Below are positions 2,167 to 38,067 of a DNA stretch of 38,144 nucleotides, piece by piece. The DNA comes from Microcaldota archaeon (GTDB taxonomy: Archaea > Micrarchaeota > Micrarchaeia > Micrarchaeales > CABMGC01). How positions within the stretch are numbered: position 1 is the stretch's first letter; every line of letters begins with the position of its first letter. A program made the translations under genes and the position numbers. The stretch lies in NCBI GenBank assembly GCA_021828295.1, contig JAKASF010000009.1, positions 1 through 38,144 on the forward strand. Direction: 5' to 3'. The notes beneath the pieces are model-generated. The model saw only the letters and a list, made by a program, of their open reading frames with translations. It did not search any database and was not told where the DNA came from.

Positions 2167-3345
2167 GTGGGGGATACGCTTGAGGGTCTCAGGGCCCAAG
2201 CGTCGTTGGAGTACCTGATGGCGTTCGTGGTTGCCCTGGGTATAGCAGTCGCAGCGGGGTACGCGCTGCTTGGGTTGGGATCTGGCGCTGCAAACCTTGT
2301 TCCCACGAGCTGCAGCTTCGACCTAGGAATAAGCTGCCAGGACATAGCCATAGTCTCAAACTCGTCATCGAGCCTTCTCGCTTTTCTCGGAAGCAACTCG
2401 CGGGAGTACGCGATAAACGGGATAAGCATGAGCCTTCTTGTATCTGGCCAGAGGGTCGCGCCGCAGTGCACCACGGGCAGGATAAGCCCCGGCGAGACTT
2501 TCGTCTGCTTCGCAAGGATGAGCGCGTTGCAGAAGCCCGGATCCGCAGCATCGGGGAACCTTACGGCCAGCGTGGGCTACTGCTCCATGAACGGGGGCGA
2601 CTGCAACGGGGGCGCTATCCAAGAGACGTACGTTGGGAGGTACACCACCTCAGTCAGTAACGGCGCAGAGCGCGTCGGCCTCGTCTTCTCGAAGCCTTTC
2701 AGGGAGCCCAACGGGAACGTAGCGATCAACGTGAGCTTCGACCTGCTCGGGTACGGGCTCTTCCTGGCTTCTGTCAGCATAAGCCCGCACTCCGGAACCA
2801 AGCCAGCAATCTCATACTCGGGTCCCGGCTCAACGTCGCTCAGCGTCACAGCATCCACTCTCGCTGACTACTGCGCCGCGCTCGTGAACGTAACCTACGC
2901 GAACCAGACAGGCACAGACGCTGTCGCGCTAAACGCGAGCAACTACACAGGAAACAGCTACAAGATATCGGGCAACACGAACGCGAACTGCTACACGCTC
3001 TCCTCGTCTACGAAGACAGTATCGGTGAGCGGGCAGGGCAACACGGCCGGGCTCTTCACCCTGGCGAACGTCTTCATCAACATCTCCTCTACCGGCGGCC
3101 ACAACGACCTAGCAGTGTTCAACAGCACCGCGACGCTGAAGATAGCGGGCAATAACAACAACGTGACTATGTTCGGCAGCAACGTAGTGCTGACAATAAC
3201 GGGCACGTACAACATGGTCACGTTCATCAACAGCAGGATAAGCAACCTAACTGCAAGCGGCAACGACAACCTCATAGTGCTCAGGAACACGACAGTGGCC
3301 CACGAGTCCATCACGGGCGCCAACGACATAGTGCAGGGTTCCTAG
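2167..3345 (+). CDS. class III signal peptide (pilin-like) protein with beta-solenoid-like C-terminus
   Basis: N-terminus GLRAQASLEYLMAFVVALGIAVAAGYALLGLG fits the archaeal QxSxEYL class III signal. C-terminal ~125 aa show ~19-aa xGxxNxV repeats. Start may be GTG 2167 or TTG 2179. Confidence 0.75.
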   Translation: MGDTLEGLRAQASLEYLMAFVVALGIAVAAGYALLGLGSGAANLVPTSCSFDLGISCQDIAIVSNSSSSLLAFLGSNSREYAINGISMSLLVSGQRVAPQCTTGRISPGETFVCFARMSALQKPGSAASGNLTASVGYCSMNGGDCNGGAIQETYVGRYTTSVSNGAERVGLVFSKPFREPNGNVAINVSFDLLGYGLFLASVSISPHSGTKPAISYSGPGSTSLSVTASTLADYCAALVNVTYANQTGTDAVALNASNYTGNSYKISGNTNANCYTLSSSTKTVSVSGQGNTAGLFTLANVFINISSTGGHNDLAVFNSTATLKIAGNNNNVTMFGSNVVLTITGTYNMVTFINSRISNLTASGNDNLIVLRNTTVAHESITGANDIVQGS

Positions 3346-27080: not shown

Positions 27081-27392
27081 ATGATATTTGTAAAGAAGCA
27101 CGCCGCGGAGCAGGGCCTCATAATCGCGATGTGCGACGAGGAGCTTATGGGAAGGGTGCTCGAGGAGGGCAAGCTCTTCATCGACCTCGACAGGTACTCC
27201 GAATTCTACAGGGGGGAGCTGGTCAGCGAGGAGAAGGCGAAGGCGATGGTGGACGGCGTTGAGCTCTACTCGGCGAACATCGTCGGGGAGCGCTCGGTAG
27301 CTGTGATGATGAACAAGGGCATCGTGGGCAAGGAGGACGTGAAGAAGGTCGGCAGGGTGCCCTTCGTGCAGGTCTTCAAGGTCGACTTCTAG
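27081..27392 (+). CDS. DUF424 family archaeal protein
   Basis: MIFVKKHAAEQGLIIAMCDEELMGRVLEEGKLFIDL...YSANIVGERSVAVMMNKGIVGKEDVKKVGRVPFVQVF. Confidence 0.8.
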   Translation: MIFVKKHAAEQGLIIAMCDEELMGRVLEEGKLFIDLDRYSEFYRGELVSEEKAKAMVDGVELYSANIVGERSVAVMMNKGIVGKEDVKKVGRVPFVQVFKVDF

Positions 27393-27745
27393 GGACCGGA
27401 ATCCTTCTCGCTCTTCAGCACGAGTATCGCGTCGGCGATGTTGCCGTGGTTCGCCTCAAGCGTCTTCCTTATCAGAGCGGTGTCCTCTACCCCTGTCTGC
27501 TCCCTCACAAGCTTTATGTCATCGTCGCTTATCTCGACCTTGCTCCTGTCTATCTCGTGCACGCTGCCGCTTATCTGGAAGCTGCTCATTCCCTGGCCCT
27601 CTATGAGCGTGACCTGCGGCGCCTCCACAACTATGTCCTTGTCGTTGCAGTGTATGACCACCTGCGTGCTCGCTATCTCTGTACTCTTTATGCCCAGCTT
27701 GTCGAGCATGCCTTTCAGCTTCTTCGGGTCTAGGTTCGGGAACAT
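27389..27745 (-). CDS. nac: nascent polypeptide-associated complex protein (archaeal aNAC)
   Basis: NLDPKKLKGMLDKLGI...NAC barrel; UBA-like end VREQTGVEDTALIRKTLEANHGNIADAILVL. Confidence 0.93.
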   Translation of the reverse strand: MFPNLDPKKLKGMLDKLGIKSTEIASTQVVIHCNDKDIVVEAPQVTLIEGQGMSSFQISGSVHEIDRSKVEISDDDIKLVREQTGVEDTALIRKTLEANHGNIADAILVLKSEKDSGP

Positions 27746-27910: not shown

Positions 27911-29572
27911 ATGGTGGAAAAAGCGCCCGTTGTGCGCGCTTCTAACAGGAACAAGAATGTCAGCGTGAGCGAGGAGAAGGTGCTAGAGATGGCGCCCAAG
28001 GTGAGCACTATCAGCAGCCAGCTTCCGGCAGTGGTGTCGTTGCTTCTACCAGAGGAGGTTAAGCTCCAGCAGTCAAAGGTTGCGGGCGCCAGAAGCATGC
28101 ACGAAGAGAGGCTAAAGAAGCTTAAGCAAGAGCTGGCAGATCCGGCTAATGAGGAAGCCTATTACAAGCTGACGGAGATCGAGAAGGACATGAAAAGCGT
28201 GGCCGGTCTCGGCCAGGGGCGCCCTGGCTCTGCCGCAAAGGAGCTCAAGGAAGAGATAAGCGGGAGGGACCCCTACGCCAACGAATATGGCAGGCTTGCC
28301 AAAGAGGCAGAAGCAATAAGAGCTGCGATGCCCGCGTCTTTGCTCGCCGTGATTAAGCAGGAGCAGAGCGCCATGGAGAAGTACGAGTCGGAGGAAGAGA
28401 CGCTGGCAAAGCTCTCTTCTGTAGACAAGAAGTTCAAAGAGTACGCAAAGAAGATGATGCCCAGCGGCTCTGAAAATAAGAATATTTTCGAAACAAGCCT
28501 CGAGACCGCGCCCGTTGAGGCCCAGAACGAACTCAAGGGCCTGATCAAAGGAATCGGCATATCAAATATTGATGCTTTTGTGGAAAGGCTCAAAGAAAAG
28601 AAGGCGGAGGCCGAGAAGGCGCTTAAGAGGTTTGGAGAGGAAGACTCTGAAATCGGGGCACTTTACTCCCTGGCTCACGAGACAGAGCAGTACGAAAGCA
28701 AGAGCGGCAGGCGCGAGTTCCTGTATAAAACGGCTCAGGCTTTTGGCGGTTTCAAGAGCAGAGCCGGCCAGACGATGACGATGCTTGATGTGCTCAATGC
28801 GGTCGATTTCGATAGCCTCCAGAGCGAGTTCGCCGATTTCGATAAGAATGTCATACTGATAAATGCGATAGACGAGGCGCTAGAGCAGAGCAGGTCTGGA
28901 ACCGCGAAGGGGGTGCTGTTCCTGAAGCAGCTCGCCGAGGGCGACGCCGAGACTGTCGGCGCGTATGGCCTTTCCAACTCGGTGAGGCTGAGCACGCCCG
29001 CGGTGCTTGTAGCAGAGGCGAAGCTGAATGCCAAGGAAACGCTCATCATGAAAGAGGAACGCCACGTGAATCAGGTTGTTGCAGCGCTGGAAGGACTTAC
29101 CGACATGAATAACACAACCCAAGTGAAGAGGGTAAAAGCCCTGTACAGAGACGCGCTTGTTGAAGTCAAATATGCGCTTCCAAGCGTTTTTGCAAACAGC
29201 CTGTCTCCGAAAGAACAGGAAGAGCTGAAGGCCATGGCCAAGCTGCTCGAAAACACGCTGGACAAGACAGCCAAGAAGCTTGGCGTTACCCCTGTGGCAG
29301 AGGAAATACACGACAAGCACGTCAAGATACTGATGGACCACTTCAGCGACATAGCTAACTGGAAGGAAGAGGAGTTCGTTGGGCGCAGCATAAGCACGTA
29401 CTGGCAACTCGTGCAGCTCTTCTCAGAGGCCTATTCGATAAAGCTCAAGGATGTACAGGAGACCTTGGACGAGTTCGTGAGAAGGCACCTTGAATTGGCC
29501 GCAGCCTTGAGGGAAAAAGCAGTTGAAAAAGGCACCGAACTCGGCGCGACGCAGATTCCAAACCTGCCGTGA
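27911..29572 (+). CDS. large coiled-coil/helical protein of unknown function
   Basis: 553-aa intact ORF, charged helical composition, upstream TATA-like CTTAAATA (27869-27877). Confidence 0.75.
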   Translation: MVEKAPVVRASNRNKNVSVSEEKVLEMAPKVSTISSQLPAVVSLLLPEEVKLQQSKVAGARSMHEERLKKLKQELADPANEEAYYKLTEIEKDMKSVAGLGQGRPGSAAKELKEEISGRDPYANEYGRLAKEAEAIRAAMPASLLAVIKQEQSAMEKYESEEETLAKLSSVDKKFKEYAKKMMPSGSENKNIFETSLETAPVEAQNELKGLIKGIGISNIDAFVERLKEKKAEAEKALKRFGEEDSEIGALYSLAHETEQYESKSGRREFLYKTAQAFGGFKSRAGQTMTMLDVLNAVDFDSLQSEFADFDKNVILINAIDEALEQSRSGTAKGVLFLKQLAEGDAETVGAYGLSNSVRLSTPAVLVAEAKLNAKETLIMKEERHVNQVVAALEGLTDMNNTTQVKRVKALYRDALVEVKYALPSVFANSLSPKEQEELKAMAKLLENTLDKTAKKLGVTPVAEEIHDKHVKILMDHFSDIANWKEEEFVGRSISTYWQLVQLFSEAYSIKLKDVQETLDEFVRRHLELAAALREKAVEKGTELGATQIPNLP

Positions 29573-29888: not shown

Positions 29889-31025
29889 TCAGCCGCCCAG
29901 CTTCTTTTTCACTTTCTTGCCCGCATCCAATATCGAGCCGAGCTTTTCTGATTCACGCACCTTTGACCTTATCGAGTTAAGCGTGTCGGATCCGATCATC
30001 TTGGCGTTAGGAATCGTGCGTATGGGGGTGATCACTCCTATGCCAGACATCTGCCTGTCTACCTGGGCTTTTATAGCATCCTCGTTAAGCGAGGATATAG
30101 CCCCGGCCTTGCTGATTCCGCTAGCCTCTCTGCTGAGCCGCCTGGCAACGCCCCTGGTGTTTTCGCTGTTTAGCACTCCTCCCAGCGCCGCTATCTCGCT
30201 CCATTCCTTGAATTCATCTCCAAGAGCCTTGCGTGTGTTTAGCCTGATGAGCGCGTTCCTTACTGTAGCAGCCTCGCTCTGCGTGAGAGGTCTGCCCTTT
30301 GCCTGCGCCTCTTTCAGCGTATAGCTGATGGCGTCGCTGGTGGAGGCATGCTCGAGAGGTGAGCTCATCGGTATATTCTCCTTTTCCGCCATGTCTTGGA
30401 GCTGATGCGCGTATTTCTCCCTGTCGGCCAGAGCGCTTTCCTGTTCCAGCTTGCTGCCTGCCGCCTTGTATTTTTCACTCGCATTTTCGTATTTTTTGAG
30501 CGTGCTGTTGTACTTCTCCTTTGCAACCATTCCCCCTCCTTTCGAGCTTAGGACCGAGCCCAAGAAAGCCCCCCCGGCTGCCTGCCCTGCCACGTGCAGG
30601 ATTCTGCCTACGGCAGACTTAAACGCGCTGCCGCCGCTAATGCTATTTCCTGAGATTCCAGGAAGCGAGTTTGCTTGTTTGTTGGCGGCGCGGCCTGCTT
30701 GCCACGAGTTGACCTTGCTCCTCGCGAACTTTCCAGGAGAGACTGTCTTGCCCTGTCTGTTTTTGAGGCCCGTCGCCCTGTAGGCGAACTGCCTCCCCAC
30801 GCCCTTGGCCTTTACCGGGCTCTTGCTGTACGAGGTCTTGCCGACAAGGGAGCCCTTGCCCGAAAGGCCAGCCGCGCCTATGCCAGCGAGCGTGCCTATG
30901 CCAAATATCCTGAAGAGGTTGTAGCCCCTCGTGAGCCCGGCAGCCGCTGCTATTAGTATCATTATGACTAGAAGTGGTATCAGCGCGTCGACGGCGCCGA
31001 ACGATAGAACAACGGCCAACAGCAT
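29889..31025 (-). CDS. membrane protein of unknown function (N-terminal TM, Ala/Gly/Lys-rich cytoplasmic part)
   Basis: LIPLLVIMILIAAAAGL and FGIGTLAGIGAAGL segments then long soluble region; TATA-like TATTTATAGG upstream. Confidence 0.7.
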   Translation of the reverse strand: MLLAVVLSFGAVDALIPLLVIMILIAAAAGLTRGYNLFRIFGIGTLAGIGAAGLSGKGSLVGKTSYSKSPVKAKGVGRQFAYRATGLKNRQGKTVSPGKFARSKVNSWQAGRAANKQANSLPGISGNSISGGSAFKSAVGRILHVAGQAAGGAFLGSVLSSKGGGMVAKEKYNSTLKKYENASEKYKAAGSKLEQESALADREKYAHQLQDMAEKENIPMSSPLEHASTSDAISYTLKEAQAKGRPLTQSEAATVRNALIRLNTRKALGDEFKEWSEIAALGGVLNSENTRGVARRLSREASGISKAGAISSLNEDAIKAQVDRQMSGIGVITPIRTIPNAKMIGSDTLNSIRSKVRESEKLGSILDAGKKVKKKLGG

Positions 31026-31068
31026 GCTCCACTCCCAATATGTATTTTGCCTTTTTCCCTATAAATAC

Positions 31069-34000
31069 CTATCCCCTGTTATCGTCGTGATGACGTCGGG
31101 CTTTTCGCCCGTGGGCGCGCCTCCTCGTGGATCCCAGCAGGAGCGCCAGCAGAGCCGTTGCGACGCTGGCCAGGAGCCAGAGAGTGTTCACGTCCCCGTA
31201 GCTGAGCTCGAAGAGGCCTATCTGGAACGGTGAGCTCCTGGTCTGCACCGGCGCCTCGCTGTAGTTTAGCTCGCCCACGATGACCGCCGATGGGTTGCTC
31301 TTCCCGATTGTGCTCTGCAACGATGCGGGCTGCGACGGGTCTATCTCTGACAGTCCCAGGGGCACCACCTTGGCCTGTATGGGCTCCGGGGCGGGGTAGC
31401 CGTAGAAGGCTGCCAGTATGCTGTCCTGCTCGGTTCCGCACGCGGTTATAGAGCCGCTGAACGCCCCTCCGGCGTTGGTGGTGAAGTACGAGCCGCCTGT
31501 CTGCTGGTTGCCTATAAGCCCTATCTGCGAGGTGCATACTCCTGCTCCTGTCGTCGGGCTTATGTCTGCGCAGTACTGGGGCTGGCCTGCCCCGGCCGGG
31601 AACGGACCAGCCTTCGCGTTGTTTACGCATGTGGCGTAATCTGGGAATTGGCCCTCGCAGTATGTGTAGCTGTGCAGCATGAGGCACGAGGCGAGATTGT
31701 CGGCCGCGGCACTACCGTGCTCGTTCTGGTAGCAGGCGAACGCCTGCGAGAGCACGCCGGTCGCGGGGCAGATGTTGGGATAGCCGTTGTTGCCGTAGAT
31801 GTTGCAGAGCGTGCTGCCCTCCTGCAGCAGCGATGGCGGCTGCGGGTTGCACTGCGCGTTCTTGCTTGCGTCGGCAAAGCCGTTGTACGAAGGCGCGTAT
31901 GTCGCCACCTGCGAGTTCGCGTACCTGTTGTTCAGGCTTGTGGTGAATACCGGATTGGACTGCACGCAGGAGTACGGGCCCGGCAGGGGGCACGAAGCGC
32001 TCGAGCTCGGCAGGAAGCTCGAATCGGAGAGCGCGTAGGCGCAGTACGCCGCGTCGAGCGGGCAAGTGACCGGGTTGTAGTCCGCGTAGTCCAGGTTGGT
32101 GTTGTAGTAGAGGTAGACGTCGTTGTTCGGGAGCGGCGTGAAGCCGCCGAAGGCGTTCTGCACGCCGAGCAGGCCGTTGAACGTTATCGTGGTCTGGTTG
32201 ACGTTGTTCGGGTTCACCTGGGAGCTCACTGTGAGCGAGAGCGAGACCGTGTTCGCAACGTCTATGTCCATCGGCACGTAGATGTTGTTCCCGAACCTGT
32301 CGTTCATCACGTAGGTTATGCGCTGGTAGCCGTAGGTGCTGCACCTTCCGGATGAGCATCCGGGTCCCGAACTGGGCGTGTAGCTCTGCGAGTTTATCGA
32401 GAGCGCGAGGTCGCTGTCGTATACTGCCTGCTTGTAGATCTCGAAGAGAGTCACAGTCGCCGCCTCCTGCAGCGGGTTGTACGAGAGCGTCGCGGTGCCG
32501 CTGCCCGCCGACGCGCCCCCTACTTCCGCGGGTCCGCTGCCCGGGTTCGATGAAGCTACCAGCGTATAGAAGCCCCCCTGCGACTGCGCGTAGTGGTCTA
32601 TCTCATATGCGTACAGCCTGCTCGAGTCGAGCACCGCCTGGTTGTTCCTTGAGCAGTCCCATATCTGCGCCCCGCCGGAGTACCCGGTTGTGCAGGCGCT
32701 GGTTATGTTGGCGTAGATGTAGCCGAAGAGCCTGTCGTTCTGCAGCGTGTAGTCTATCAGCGGCGGCACCACGAGGCCGTAGTTCGAGAGGTTGGGCATG
32801 AAGTAGCCGCCCGTAGGCGCAGTGCTGAGCAGGTAGCTGTAATCGCCTTCTATCGTCGCGGTCTGCGTACCCGACGGCCCGTTCACGAGCGCGAAGCTGT
32901 ACACGTCCGTCGGGGCGGCGGTCTGCTGCGTCAGCGACGGAGGCGCGCAGAGGCTGGACGGGCTGTCCGGGCTTGCGTCCCCGCTCTCAGAGACCACGGT
33001 CGGCCCGGATTCAAGCGCCGATTTCTGGCTTATCGAATACGTGTACTTGTACGGCACCACCAGATAGCCGGATATCCGGCTGCTCAGTGTCTCCGCCTGC
33101 GCTGGTACAGAGCTCCCGGTTCCTGAAGATGTGGACTGCACAGTTAGCGTCTGGCTCGTGCTCTTCCCGTTCTCCGTAGCTGTCATCGTGTAGGTCTGGC
33201 CCGGCGAGAGCCCGCAGGTCGCATCCATCTTGTTCCCCGAGTTGGGGCAGATGAAGAAGTAGACGCCGTCCTTGAACGTGTTAGAGGTGCCGACAGTCGC
33301 GCCGTTCGGGCCCGTTAGCGCTATCGTGACCGAGTCGCCGGGGTTGTAGGCGACGGCATAGGCGGTGTCTGGGATTATGTATAGGCTGCTGTCAACGGTG
33401 TTGGTGGCCTGCACCGCTATCGGGCTCGCGATGTTTAGGAATGGGACCTGGTTGACGCTTAGCTTATAGGTGTTCGGCTCGCCGCTGGCCAGGCATGGGG
33501 GCGAGCTGCACGTGTCAGATGGCGCGAACTCGTTGCCCGTTATGGCTATCGGGCTGTTGCTGGGCAGAACGCAGTCGAGCGGCCTGTTTACTGTCTGCGT
33601 GCTGCCGGGGGTTATGCTCGGAGGCGTGCCGCAGATGGTCACCGACGCGGATTGCGAGGAGCTGCTCACGGGGCTGCCCCCGAGCTCGTTGCCCTTGCTG
33701 TCGATCGCGTTCGCCGCGACGCTGTCTCCGGCGTTCGTCGCCGTGACAGTTACCTGGTCCGTGACCCCGTAGTCGACCGGCGCCAGCTGCTCGCTCAGCG
33801 TTGGAGTTCCGCTCTGCGTCGCCCCTCCCGATGCGCACTGGTTGCTGCTCGTCGCCTGCGAGCTGCAGCCCGTGTTCTGCAGGTTCTGCAGGAACGAGCT
33901 GTAGAACTGGCTGGCTAGGCTCTGGGTCTGCGCCGAGCCCAGGTTCTCCACATACCTCAGCGGGTTCGTGACCAGGTACACCGGGGCGGCGATGCTGTTC

Positions 34001-37000
34001 ACCGCGGTCGATGAGGCGCACGAGCCGCTGTCAGATTGCGAGAGGGATGAGATGCACGTGTACGGCTGGAATCCCTTGAACACGTTGGTGTAGTTCTCAG
34101 CCCGCGTGTTGGCGAAGAGAAGCTCGTTGTAGAAAGTCGCATCCTGCACCTGGCAGCTGTACCCTAGCAGCAGGCCCGAGGAGCAGAGCGACGTCGAGAG
34201 CCCCGCGGGGAGCGGAGGGAAGAGCATGCTCGAGGTCTCGTTGAAGTTTATCGTGAACGATGAGTCGTAGATCATGGGGGCGAACGCCGCGCCGGTGCGT
34301 TGGTATGTGGGGCTCTCGAACGCTCTGGGCGTCTTGCTCGAGAGCGGCGCCGATACCTCCGCGGTCTGCACGGCCCTGAGGAGAGGCCCCACAGGCATGT
34401 AGCCTCCGAGATAGACCGCCGGCATATTGCTCGGGTTGAAGGTGCACTCTGTGGATGAGCAGAAGGTGATCGGGTTGCTCGCGCCGGGTGTGCTCGCGTA
34501 TCTTTCATACACGGTGTTGAAGAACGCGGACCTGAAGAACTGGTTCAGCGAGTTCATGCCGGTGATGTTTGCCGAGAGTATCCAGCCGTAGGGCGGATAC
34601 GCACCGCCGAGACCTGCCAGAGAGCTTGCGGGTGTCTGCGTCCAGTACTGGGAGCCCTCTCCTGTGCTAGGCGAATGGCATCCGAACTTATCGCCGCTCT
34701 TGCCGTTGATGGTGCAGCCTATGTACAGGGTCTGGCATTCGTTGCTGGGGTTGCACTGCAGGCTCCAGCTCTGTGTGTCGGTTATGCACTCTTCCTGCAC
34801 CGGGGTCTGCGGCGGGATTCCCAGCCCGGTGTAGACGAAGGTCGCCGAGCAGCTTTGCGGGGAGAACATATCATCGAATCCGGTCGGATTTATTGGAGTA
34901 TCGACTCCCTGCGAGTTGAGCGCACGCAGCACGAGTATGTCAAAATAGGTGCCGGGCCCGTACGAGGACTCGCCAACAGCGCCCGGGGGCGAGTACATAA
35001 CGTTAGCGGAGCCAGCCCAGTTGTCAAGCACGTACAGGTAGCCGTTGACCACGCTGATTCCTATCGGGTGGTGGTACGCGGCCTGGTCCATGTCGTTCGT
35101 GGCGTATATGGCCTGGCCTCCGGACTGCGTGCCCTGCGTAGCGGGCCCCGCATAGAAGGCGGTAACAGAGCCGCCTCCTGTCGTCTGCGTCTGCGTCTTG
35201 CCATCGAACTTCACGCCGAAGAGGCCCCCGTTTAGCAGCCAGTCGCTTATGCTCAGCGTCGACTGAGCGCCCTGGCCCACGGCGCTCTGGTAAGCGAGGT
35301 CGATGGTGCCGCTCTGCGCCAGCGTAGTGCCGTCGAACTGGTAGACGTAGCCGCTGGTCTGGTTGGCCCCGTAGACTATCTGGCCCGTCGACGTAGAGGC
35401 TATCTCGTTGAGTATCGGTATGGCAGGCGCGCTGCTAGAGGCGAGCGACCACTGCAGCGTCGTGTTCGCGAAGAGCGAAGGCGTCGCGCCCCAGTTCACC
35501 TGCCCGTTCGAGCCGGTCGGGAAGAGAAGCCCGATTATGGCCGGGTAGGTGTTGTAGTTGTTTCCAGAGTTCTCTGTCACGAGGATGTTGCCCGTTATGA
35601 AGACCGCTCCAGAGTCGGACACGCTCATGTTGAGCGGCGTGAAGCCCGAGGCAGCGTAGCCTTTGTCGGAGCAGCTGGCCGTGTTCACGCTGTTCGAGCA
35701 CGCATTGCCCAGCGACGTCGCAAACGAGCCCAGCTGGGATTTCAGGTCCTGGGCGTTTATGTTGTACACGGCCTGGTCCTGCAGCGTTATCACGTTGCTC
35801 CAGTAGCTGTTCCAGCCGCTTGTCCACGCGCCCGGGCTGCCTGCCTGGTACGGCGTGTCTGGGTTGCTCGGTGACGGCTGGTAGCCCGTGACGTTGAAGT
35901 AGCCGTGGGGTATGAGACGCAGCACGTCGATGTAGTAATCGCCGTTGCCGCTGCTTGCAGGGTTGGACCAGTTCAGCACGAGCACGTAGTCGTTGGCCAG
36001 CGCCGATATCGAGATGGCATTTGCTACGAGTGGGCTGTAGAGCCCGGAGCTCGCAGTCTTGTGGTTAGAGAGCGCGTCGAGCAGGCCGCCTATGCTGCCC
36101 TGCGCGTCCTGCAGGAATGTCTGTATGTTGCCGAGGAGCTGCAGCACCGAGTTGCTCAGCCCTCCTGTCCCGCTCGCTGGCGAAGAGAGCAGCGTGCCCT
36201 GGTAGTTGAAGAAGAGCGTGTTCGGCGTATCGATCGGGAAGGTGTCTATCACGTTGACCGGCGTCGGGTAGTTCCACGGGCTGAATATGTCATAGGAGTC
36301 GGCGAGGTTCTGGCCGTCGAGCCCAGGAAGAAGGTAGTTGTAGGTGAAGTACGGCACAACGTTGGCGTTGAACGTGTTCTCTATGTTCGTCGTGCCGCCG
36401 CTGCTCTTCGTGGCTGTTGTGTACGGTATGTAGTAGTTCTGCACGTTCTGCAACTGGGTGGTCTCGCTGTACGAGTAGGTGTACGCGCAGGTCAGCGTCT
36501 CTGTCTGCTCCTGCGACGCGCAGATGGTGCTGCTGGAGCTGCTGCTGCTGCTGGTGCTGGTGCTCGGCACTCCGGTGCGCACGTTGCAGGTAGAGCATGC
36601 AGGCTCATCGCCAACGCCGCACTGCTCCTGTATCGTGTTGGTTGTCTCCACGCTCACCGGGTTGGCGCTGGCCGTTAGCGAGTCCAGCTCCATGCTGTTG
36701 AAGTTTGCGAATATCGCGTTCCACGTCCAGACCCCGTGCTGCGCGTATGAGGGCACCTGGCCGAAGACGTATGTGTTTGTGGAGAAGCCGTTCGAGAGCA
36801 CGTTTCCGCTTCCGCTCTCGAGCATCGGCGAGTAGCCGAAGTTTGTTATGGTGAGCGATGCTGGCTTGAGGTCGTTGAACGTAAGCGCGCCCACGCTCGC
36901 GCGGGCCGGGCTGTATTGACCCCAGCTTATCGACGTGGGCAGGTCTATGCTCGTCAGCAGCTTCGTCTGCTTGTTGTAGCATGCGTCGCCGAGCACGTTC

Positions 37001-38067
37001 TGGTACTGCATGTCGTTAGGGTAGCCGTAGAAGAGGCCCTGATTAGAGGTGCTGAACGTGCTCTGCGGGCAGATGAGCATCAGCGGCACGGAGGCGGCGT
37101 TGCTCTGGTTTACCTGGTTGGCGGGAGAGGCATCCGAAGCCGAGGATTGCGTAGAGGTGAGCGGTCCCGTTCCCGCCGTCACCTGCGTCGTTATCACCTG
37201 CGTGTCGTGGCACGTGCCCCCGTAAGATTGCGGGCAGGCGCCGCCTGCGCAGAGGTCCAGCGTCGCCGTATTGCTTGTAGAGGATACCTGGCCCGCGGGC
37301 GTGTTTGTGCAGTAGTTCCAGAAGCTCGGGGGCGTGGTGCTGCTGCTTCCCGTGCCGCTGCTCCCTCCGCCAGTTGTCTGGCATGGGGGCGAGCTGCATG
37401 CTACGGTGTATGATATGGACGCACCCTCTCCGCCGCAGCCTGCCCCCGGGGGCCCCACGCAAACGGATACGGAAACGCCGTATTCTCCTCCAGAGCTGTA
37501 TGCATGGGTAGTGGTGGCGCTAGTTCCCTGCCCGCTCACATAGGTGGTCTGCGTCTGGCCATCGCCGAAGTTCCAGTTCACGCTATTCTGTATCGTGCCG
37601 CTTCCCGAGCAGGTCACAGTGAACGTGACCGTCTGTCCGGGGATCGAGGAGGTCGGGCTGGCTGACAGGGTGCAGCCCCCGGAGTTGGAATTGCCGAAGG
37701 TGACGGTTACCGGGCTTGAAGTGTACTGCGTGCCCGAATAGGTGTACGATGCGTACACAGTCACAGTGCCCGCCTGTCCAAAGCTGTACTGCACGCTGCA
37801 CGAACTGCCGCCGTTCAGGCTGCACGACTCTGCGCTGGTGCCAGCACCATAGGGCTGTTCAAAGCTAAATTGCACGCTGCCAGACGGCGAGCCGATTCCG
37901 CCGATGGTCGCGGTGCACGTGGTGTGCTGGTTGCTGCTCAGTTGGGTGGGGGAGCACGAGAGCGATATGGTGGGTGAGCTTGTCTGCTGCGCGCTCAGGT
38001 TTGGCGCAAGGATGATGCTTATGATTAGGAATAGAAGAAATGCGTAACGAACGTTTGCCGCTAACAT
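31069..38067 (-). CDS. giant secreted, C-terminally anchored surface protein (2332 aa) with Ig-like and PKD-like domains
   Basis: Signal peptide YAFLLFLIISIILAPNLSAQ; Ig-like GSVQFSF...VTVYASYTYSGTQY; PKD-like VNWNFGDGQTQTTYVSG...TTHAYSSGGEYGVSV; C-terminal TM LWLLASVATALLALLLG plus basic tail. Confidence 0.9.
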   Translation of the reverse strand: MLAANVRYAFLLFLIISIILAPNLSAQQTSSPTISLSCSPTQLSSNQHTTCTATIGGIGSPSGSVQFSFEQPYGAGTSAESCSLNGGSSCSVQYSFGQAGTVTVYASYTYSGTQYTSSPVTVTFGNSNSGGCTLSASPTSSIPGQTVTFTVTCSGSGTIQNSVNWNFGDGQTQTTYVSGQGTSATTTHAYSSGGEYGVSVSVCVGPPGAGCGGEGASISYTVACSSPPCQTTGGGSSGTGSSSTTPPSFWNYCTNTPAGQVSSTSNTATLDLCAGGACPQSYGGTCHDTQVITTQVTAGTGPLTSTQSSASDASPANQVNQSNAASVPLMLICPQSTFSTSNQGLFYGYPNDMQYQNVLGDACYNKQTKLLTSIDLPTSISWGQYSPARASVGALTFNDLKPASLTITNFGYSPMLESGSGNVLSNGFSTNTYVFGQVPSYAQHGVWTWNAIFANFNSMELDSLTASANPVSVETTNTIQEQCGVGDEPACSTCNVRTGVPSTSTSSSSSSSSTICASQEQTETLTCAYTYSYSETTQLQNVQNYYIPYTTATKSSGGTTNIENTFNANVVPYFTYNYLLPGLDGQNLADSYDIFSPWNYPTPVNVIDTFPIDTPNTLFFNYQGTLLSSPASGTGGLSNSVLQLLGNIQTFLQDAQGSIGGLLDALSNHKTASSGLYSPLVANAISISALANDYVLVLNWSNPASSGNGDYYIDVLRLIPHGYFNVTGYQPSPSNPDTPYQAGSPGAWTSGWNSYWSNVITLQDQAVYNINAQDLKSQLGSFATSLGNACSNSVNTASCSDKGYAASGFTPLNMSVSDSGAVFITGNILVTENSGNNYNTYPAIIGLLFPTGSNGQVNWGATPSLFANTTLQWSLASSSAPAIPILNEIASTSTGQIVYGANQTSGYVYQFDGTTLAQSGTIDLAYQSAVGQGAQSTLSISDWLLNGGLFGVKFDGKTQTQTTGGGSVTAFYAGPATQGTQSGGQAIYATNDMDQAAYHHPIGISVVNGYLYVLDNWAGSANVMYSPPGAVGESSYGPGTYFDILVLRALNSQGVDTPINPTGFDDMFSPQSCSATFVYTGLGIPPQTPVQEECITDTQSWSLQCNPSNECQTLYIGCTINGKSGDKFGCHSPSTGEGSQYWTQTPASSLAGLGGAYPPYGWILSANITGMNSLNQFFRSAFFNTVYERYASTPGASNPITFCSSTECTFNPSNMPAVYLGGYMPVGPLLRAVQTAEVSAPLSSKTPRAFESPTYQRTGAAFAPMIYDSSFTINFNETSSMLFPPLPAGLSTSLCSSGLLLGYSCQVQDATFYNELLFANTRAENYTNVFKGFQPYTCISSLSQSDSGSCASSTAVNSIAAPVYLVTNPLRYVENLGSAQTQSLASQFYSSFLQNLQNTGCSSQATSSNQCASGGATQSGTPTLSEQLAPVDYGVTDQVTVTATNAGDSVAANAIDSKGNELGGSPVSSSSQSASVTICGTPPSITPGSTQTVNRPLDCVLPSNSPIAITGNEFAPSDTCSSPPCLASGEPNTYKLSVNQVPFLNIASPIAVQATNTVDSSLYIIPDTAYAVAYNPGDSVTIALTGPNGATVGTSNTFKDGVYFFICPNSGNKMDATCGLSPGQTYTMTATENGKSTSQTLTVQSTSSGTGSSVPAQAETLSSRISGYLVVPYKYTYSISQKSALESGPTVVSESGDASPDSPSSLCAPPSLTQQTAAPTDVYSFALVNGPSGTQTATIEGDYSYLLSTAPTGGYFMPNLSNYGLVVPPLIDYTLQNDRLFGYIYANITSACTTGYSGGAQIWDCSRNNQAVLDSSRLYAYEIDHYAQSQGGFYTLVASSNPGSGPAEVGGASAGSGTATLSYNPLQEAATVTLFEIYKQAVYDSDLALSINSQSYTPSSGPGCSSGRCSTYGYQRITYVMNDRFGNNIYVPMDIDVANTVSLSLTVSSQVNPNNVNQTTITFNGLLGVQNAFGGFTPLPNNDVYLYYNTNLDYADYNPVTCPLDAAYCAYALSDSSFLPSSSASCPLPGPYSCVQSNPVFTTSLNNRYANSQVATYAPSYNGFADASKNAQCNPQPPSLLQEGSTLCNIYGNNGYPNICPATGVLSQAFACYQNEHGSAAADNLASCLMLHSYTYCEGQFPDYATCVNNAKAGPFPAGAGQPQYCADISPTTGAGVCTSQIGLIGNQQTGGSYFTTNAGGAFSGSITACGTEQDSILAAFYGYPAPEPIQAKVVPLGLSEIDPSQPASLQSTIGKSNPSAVIVGELNYSEAPVQTRSSPFQIGLFELSYGDVNTLWLLASVATALLALLLGSTRRRAHGRKARRHHDDNRG

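Follow-up and report, generated by a model that had tools for sequence, protein, structure and literature searches.

The giant surface protein and its membrane partner

The stretch of DNA analyzed here, referred to as the window, is the entire contig JAKASF010000009.1 of a Microcaldota archaeon (38,144 nt; G000:C32:1-38144), whose genome G000 comprises 768,693 bp in 32 contigs. Its upper end carries on the minus strand the gene for a giant surface protein of 2332 amino acids (aa; 31069-38067), followed after 43 bp on the same strand by the gene for a 378-aa partner protein (29889-31025). Both open reading frames (ORFs) were as described in the initial annotation, and the two proteins probably belong to a translocation machine resembling a type IV secretion system (T4SS). 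The upstream side of the giant falls outside the contig and was therefore not visible in the window genome. Comparisons were made with 59 relatives, the named ones nearly all metagenome-assembled genomes (MAGs) of 'Candidatus Micrarchaeota' with a few labeled Marsarchaeota; the co-occurrence counts given below come from incomplete MAGs and are confounded by completeness.

The giant begins with a signal peptide region (residues ~1-26, 37990-38067) recognized by hydropathy, with the hydrophobic signal at residues 4-22. Variable N-terminal immunoglobulin (Ig)- and PKD-like modules follow (residues 27-280, 37228-37989), with a mean column occupancy of ~0.3-0.4 among 29 orthologues. They include a PKD domain (residues 133-203, 37459-37671) found by PF18911 and PF00801 above the curated cut-offs, and PKD, with the PF18911 match at residues 139-202 (E 9.6e-8), was the sole confident Pfam domain. 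The conserved head (residues 281-1425, 33793-37227), delimited by orthologue alignment, profile and structure model, contains sequence of YVTN-type beta-propeller at residues ~700-1075. In the alignment, a poorly conserved linker (residues 1426-1639, 33151-33792) separates the head from the membrane-proximal half (residues 1640-2291, 31195-33150), which is the most conserved part and was modeled as a stalk of Ig-like beta-sandwiches. An LSYGxI juxtamembrane motif precedes the C-terminal transmembrane (TM) helix (residues ~2292-2316, 31120-31194), and a short basic tail, predicted to be cytosolic, ends the protein with the stop codon (31069-31119). The signal peptide, PKD domain, C-terminal TM helix, basic tail and many Cys residues of the initial annotation were thus all present, the protein having 62 Cys, 14 N-glycosylation sequons and a single C-terminal TM segment. 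It is best read from these features as a type I single-pass surface glycoprotein, the glycosylation being presumed.

The propeller-like middle noted earlier was borne out by the Methanosarcina YVTN-propeller/PKD surface protein 1l0q, which matched the head by sequence profile (E 4.3e-7) and was the best hit in the Foldseek fold search (E 1.5e-4), both matches being local to the domain. The head model reached a predicted local distance difference test score (pLDDT) of 67 and a predicted template modeling score (pTM) of 0.71, moderate values that leave fine detail unsupported. The model of the C-terminal half (pLDDT 77, pTM 0.72) consisted of beta-sandwiches and the terminal helix, and its fold search returned generic Ig-like chains only, none below 1e-3. 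A likeness of the head to Tc toxins, seen in weak Foldseek hits (TM-score ~0.1 or less), was set aside as generic beta-propeller and beta-rich matching.

Single-copy orthologues of the giant were found in 41 of the 59 relatives and in 99 of the 148 genomes of the order, and a second order within the class held distant members. Orthologues measured 1559-3348 aa and were ~28-44% identical over the matched parts. Across the 29 aligned orthologues the conserved core comprised residues ~281-1425 and 1640-2320 with invariant Cys, Gly and Pro, and the N-terminal ~280 residues were poorly kept. Because the orthologues keep the same core, the giant is a real gene. No ATPase domain was present in the giants scanned. 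One orthologue, from genome G035 (L079:7904-17734), carried an inserted lysozyme-like SLT_3 domain at residues 1663-1771 (E 2.4e-5, just below the cut-off), which recalls VirB1-type enzymes of T4SSs. Upstream of the giant, an AglB/STT3-like oligosaccharyltransferase gene (TIGR04154, 59 bits, below the cut-off) was located at L067, L075, L077, L092, L093, L104 and L161, accompanied in several relatives by genes for topoisomerase I and a GCD14-type methyltransferase. GT4 genes were also found upstream of the giant in several relatives.

The partner had homologues in 44 of the 59 relatives, which have just the N-terminal ~65 aa in common. In the window protein this near-invariant N-terminus with its membrane helix (residues 1-67, 30825-31025) is the anchor, in agreement with the N-terminal membrane segment annotated earlier, and its consensus LSxGAIxALIPIIIIxILIAAAAGLTRGxDIFxxFGIGTL was near-invariant across the order. 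The remainder (29892-30824 in the window) is variable, and the homologues, of 304-938 aa, are Lys/Arg-rich in this part (KR 16% versus DE 9% in the window protein). DnaJ domains were detected in 4 of 54 tails (E down to 1.4e-17), so the tail is predicted to lie in the cytosol. The partner resembled the N-terminus of the VirB6-like proteins described below by eye, a likeness that hhalign against that N-terminus did not bear out (2%), and on this comparison the partner was no longer considered a VirB2/VirB6-hairpin relative. Downstream (3') of the partner, on the opposite strand, a conserved trio of TrkA_N (RCK) potassium-channel-like genes was observed at L065:13619-15544 and at many loci of family f2.

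Giant and partner occurred together in 38 of the 42 giant-bearing genomes. Among ~74 giant loci, including a few duplicates, the partner lay within 300 bp in 32 and within 4 kb in 5, and was fused to the giant in 2. At the two fused loci (L131 and L105) a shared LSxG-like motif marks the point where the ectodomain of the giant passes directly into the partner membrane helix, leaving one TM segment instead of two. The LSxG-like motif was found in 77% of partners, 48% of giant C-termini and 1.5% of 473 control proteins with an N-terminal TM segment, percentages that count as support without a clean P value because the partners are mutually related. The partner is best read as the membrane and cytosolic counterpart of the giant, with a constant anchor and a variable basic tail predicted to lie inside the cell.

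The VirB4/VirB6-like operon and its link to the pair

The initial annotation had pointed to VirB4/HerA-like ATPases possibly encoded beyond the window, and these were found. In about 10 relatives the partner gene lies inside or heads an operon of VirB6-like, c9 and VirB4 genes, and 36 other partners adjoin the giant. Here c9 denotes a ~275-aa protein resembling the N-terminal part of VirB4 or CedB with an N-terminal hairpin, and c22 a ~500-aa VirB4/CedB-like ATPase. The large operon contains several proteins of 350-630 aa with 6-10 TM segments, two c9 genes, the c22 ATPase, a small protein and an HNH-like gene. In the window genome it is located at G000:C14:~11.4-22.8 kb (L208), and the same layout was present at L211, L213, L214, L215, L218 and L219. 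Among the 59 genomes, none had the partner while lacking the large operon (44/0/9/6).

The c22 family matched PF01935, PF12846 and PF19044 in Pfam, models of CedD, TraC, CedB and VirB4 (E ~1e-19 to 1e-15), and by profile HerA and the VirB4-like 4ag5 in the PDB; by these matches it is a member of the VirB4/CedB/HerA ATPase superfamily. One member of the c9 family matched CedB residues 4-184 weakly (E 1.4e-3), and the ATPase of a second, small system matched CedB residues ~250-522 (E 7e-17), both scores far under the curated CedB cut-off, which makes these proteins relatives of CedB and not CedB itself. A Pfam scan of the c9 family gave nothing. VirB4/CedB thus appears to be split in two genes, the N-terminal part c9 and the ATPase.

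Six tandem polytopic genes were present in each fully mapped operon (G000, G001, G002, G035, G041, G044 and G057), and their products form one homologous family (hhalign 98.9-99.3%). Compared as single sequences with PrgI, PrgJ and PrgH of pCF10, the c9 and VirB6-like families gave no signal; just the ATPase aligned (64%). Downstream of the VirB4 gene lies a gene for a ~800-aa membrane-anchored protein (L208:16373-18724) without a Pfam match, which had a homologue in G166 (E 7e-54) and so occurs in two orders. The second, small system consists of one polytopic protein, one c9 and one ATPase and was observed in nearly all 59 relatives, in the window genome at G000:C14:~62.7-65.6 kb (L209) and elsewhere at L118, L157 and L212. 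This CedA-CedB-like system is a candidate Ced-type DNA importer in Micrarchaeota. Six paralogues beside the split VirB4, against one in the small system, suggest a hetero-oligomeric channel.

In some genomes the giant is joined to the operon as well. In G035 a single locus holds on one strand the partner gene, then six VirB6-like genes, a pair of c9 genes and, beyond one gene on the opposite strand, the giant. In the second order, represented by family f11 (G166, G164 and G161), one strand carries the VirB6-like array, two c9 genes, the VirB4 ATPase, small genes, the giant and a partner-like gene, so that the giant ends the operon. The gene immediately before the giant in G166 and G164 encodes the ~800-aa protein (in G166 L227, G166:C1:46902-49337). 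The f11 giants are homologous to the window giant (in G166, E 5e-13 with profile A8 and E 3e-8 with profile A7), and the pre-TM motif of the f11 partner-like genes is the same by eye, with weak hidden Markov model (HMM) scores.

The idea of a secretion-like envelope module in the initial annotation therefore stands as far as giant and partner are tied to VirB4 operons, and neither of the findings named there as counting against it was made, since giant and partner do co-occur in relatives and the giant matched no S-layer family; the 553-aa protein and the acidic microprotein it had included are not core. The gene of the former, a helical protein (27911-29572, plus strand), is convergent with the partner gene and not divergent as had been stated. 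Clear homologues of the 553-aa protein were confined to the genus, and weak HMM matches beside other giants are possible relatives; it was ruled out as a core component outside a few lineages and is regarded as an optional, lineage-restricted neighbor. No acidic microprotein belonging to the module was found, the small genes nearby being those for NAC (27389-27745) and DUF424 (27081-27392). The low end of the window carries mostly ordinary housekeeping genes. A 392-aa protein encoded at 2167-3345 on the plus strand combines a pilin-like N-terminus (QASLEYLMAF) with DUF3060 and clusters loosely with giant-locus proteins.

The proposed machine and alternative readings

We consider it likely that giant and partner form the outer, distal part of a minimal T4SS-like translocation machine encoded on the chromosome, with the giant as its exposed arm and the partner as the membrane and cytosolic half. 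The machine would comprise about six VirB6/CedA-like polytopic proteins, two VirB4-N/CedB-N-like proteins, a separate VirB4/CedB-like ATPase and the ~800-aa membrane-anchored protein. The arm, with its variable PKD/Ig tip, propeller head and Ig stalk, would probably project through the S-layer and recognize or tether another cell, most likely the host. The partner may couple this contact to the membrane-located channel and ATPase, and giant and channel would touch physically. The six polytopic proteins would form the pore, the split VirB4 would serve as the power source, and some substrate might be transported either by import, as in Ced, or by delivery.

Several observations weigh against this assignment. 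In most Micrarchaeales the giant and partner lie away from the operon, and at 35 of the ~74 giant loci the 4 kb on either side held no partner. The operon is kept in several near-complete genomes from which the giant is absent, and a search with the giant profile A8 retrieved no giant in 18 giant-poor genomes. In genus g31 (G039 and G053) the partner and operon are kept, with two partner copies in G053, and the giant is missing between its usual neighbors; because the operon is kept without it, the machine in these and similar genomes can do without the giant. The VirB6-like family had no match in Pfam, NCBIfam or PDB, its hhalign comparison with PrgH failed, and its assignment was made from topology and synteny only. 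Since VirB6 homology failed by sequence, formal T4SS membership is only partly established for a machine that would work like a T4SS.

The relatives have a separate S-layer protein, a Cys-free, sequon-rich, secreted protein of 992 aa matching PF05124 (S_layer_C, E 7e-16), which was present in 52 of the 59 genomes with up to 71% identity, the window genome included (G000:C5, cut by the contig end). The S-layer locus of Ca. Micrarchaeum harzensis is presumably Micr_00292: icd2 is Micr_00902 at 842 kb, which by arithmetic places number 292 near 273 kb, the site of the 992-aa PF05124 gene. Immediately upstream of this gene, in the genome taken as harzensis (G067), a 5127-aa ORF with 204 sequons was observed (G067:C1:256225-271608).

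A role of the giant itself in building the S-layer lattice of the lineage would fit its surface location and its PKD and propeller domains, which resemble those of the Methanosarcina protein 1l0q. The giant had no S-layer family match in Pfam or NCBIfam, a distinct and better conserved PF05124 protein exists in 52 of the 59 genomes, and lengths of 1559-3348 aa within one order are unusual for a lattice protein; we regard this reading as very improbable. More weight goes to a structural role in the envelope, for instance as a TM-anchored, SlaB-like S-layer stalk whose link to the T4SS-like genes reflects just a common regulation of envelope genes or a common history. In favor of this, the giant occurs in a single copy, has its anchor at the C-terminus and is rich in Ig-like domains, with AglB-like or GT4 genes upstream in several relatives, and the 992-aa protein has a signal segment and no other predicted TM segment; in a published scheme S-layer anchoring is marked as unknown (PMC8975820), which also counts for this role. 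The S-layer family occurs in more genomes than the giant (52 versus 41 of 59), however, and if the lattice depended on this anchor, genomes with the lattice protein would be expected to have the giant too, unlike G039, G053 and G058. Embedding in VirB4-ATPase operons in two orders would also be left unexplained, and a structural role was judged unlikely.

A general adhesin or signaling receptor formed by giant and partner, without a role in translocation, would match the variable N-terminal modules expected of adhesins and the layout of the fusions, in which the ectodomain, TM segment and variable cytosolic tail, in some cases with DnaJ, are arranged as in classical receptors. Such a receptor leaves unexplained that about 10 genomes have the partner gene within VirB6/VirB4-like operons, that the partner was never found without the operon, and that in f11 operons of this kind end with the giant; it appears improbable.

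Taking giant and partner as parts of a translocation machine, we propose tentatively, and with more doubt than confidence, a vertically inherited, domesticated contact-dependent translocator with a six-paralogue hetero-oligomeric pore, VirB4 as two N-halves and a motor, a host-facing giant and a partner with interchangeable cytosolic tails. If true, this translocator would correspond in archaea to the epibiont T4SS of the candidate phyla radiation (CPR) and be a physical conduit for DPANN-host exchange. For the uptake of host material by DPANN archaea, a conserved candidate set of genes can be named here, the giant, the partner, six VirB6-like genes and the split VirB4. Candidate nanotubes and filaments have been observed in DPANN, and PMC8975820 and PMC11329633 do not connect them with any set of Micrarchaeota genes. 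On the evidence of gene order in relatives, giant and partner are a concrete candidate for how Micrarchaeota connect to hosts, and orthologues of the giant are present in genomes taken as the cultivated Ca. Micrarchaeum harzensis and Ca. Mancarchaeum.

Comparison with known systems

In the literature compared, no account was found of a VirB4/T4SS-like system in Micrarchaeota or of the giant family tied to one. The Methanosarcina surface layer protein 1l0q was the best profile and fold match to the giant head, and the rest of the giant was unmatched. For Ca. Mancarchaeum acidiphilum Mia14, strain-specific PKD/propeller surface proteins have been described and treated as surface-layer proteins in an account that names neither VirB4 nor T4SS (PMC5498576); the genome taken as Mia14 (G041) encodes a 2805-aa orthologue of the giant family.

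The T4SSs of Patescibacteria/CPR (PMC12102498 and PMC12857230) are similar in being chromosomal monoderm VirB4 systems of host-dependent ultrasmall cells, and some components have been reported as essential for epibiotic growth (PMC12102498 and PMC12857230). They differ in being bacterial, with PrgI/PrgJ-type VirB3/4 and VirB6, and a giant surface protein was not found in the text of PMC12102498. The crenarchaeal Ced/Ted DNA import systems (PMC9905601) are chromosomal minimal T4SS derivatives with a VirB4/CedB-like ATPase and a CedA/VirB6-like protein of 6-7 TM segments, a layout like the one proposed for Micrarchaeota, whose c9 and c22 resemble a split CedB. In contrast to Ced/Ted with its single CedA, Micrarchaeota have about six polytopic paralogues, a CedB divided between two genes, with the N-half present twice, and an added giant surface protein; no CedA1-type pilin was found, with no systematic pilin search made.

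The SPEARE giants of Nanohaloarchaeota, of 8,880-9,409 aa, have a VirB4/TraG ATPase domain fused at the cytosolic end and have been proposed to act with a T4SS (PMC10266531). By the architecture described, they share with the Micrarchaeota giant a DPANN symbiont as bearer, a single-pass giant with signal peptide, Ig-like domains, propellers and C-terminal TM segment, and a tie to a VirB4-type ATPase. The Micrarchaeota giant differs in its length of 1.6-3.4 kaa, in the missing ATPase domain and in being paired or fused with a small partner, while the ATPase is encoded apart from it and split. By this analogy, SPEARE would be the closest working model, with its functions spread over several genes in Micrarchaeota.

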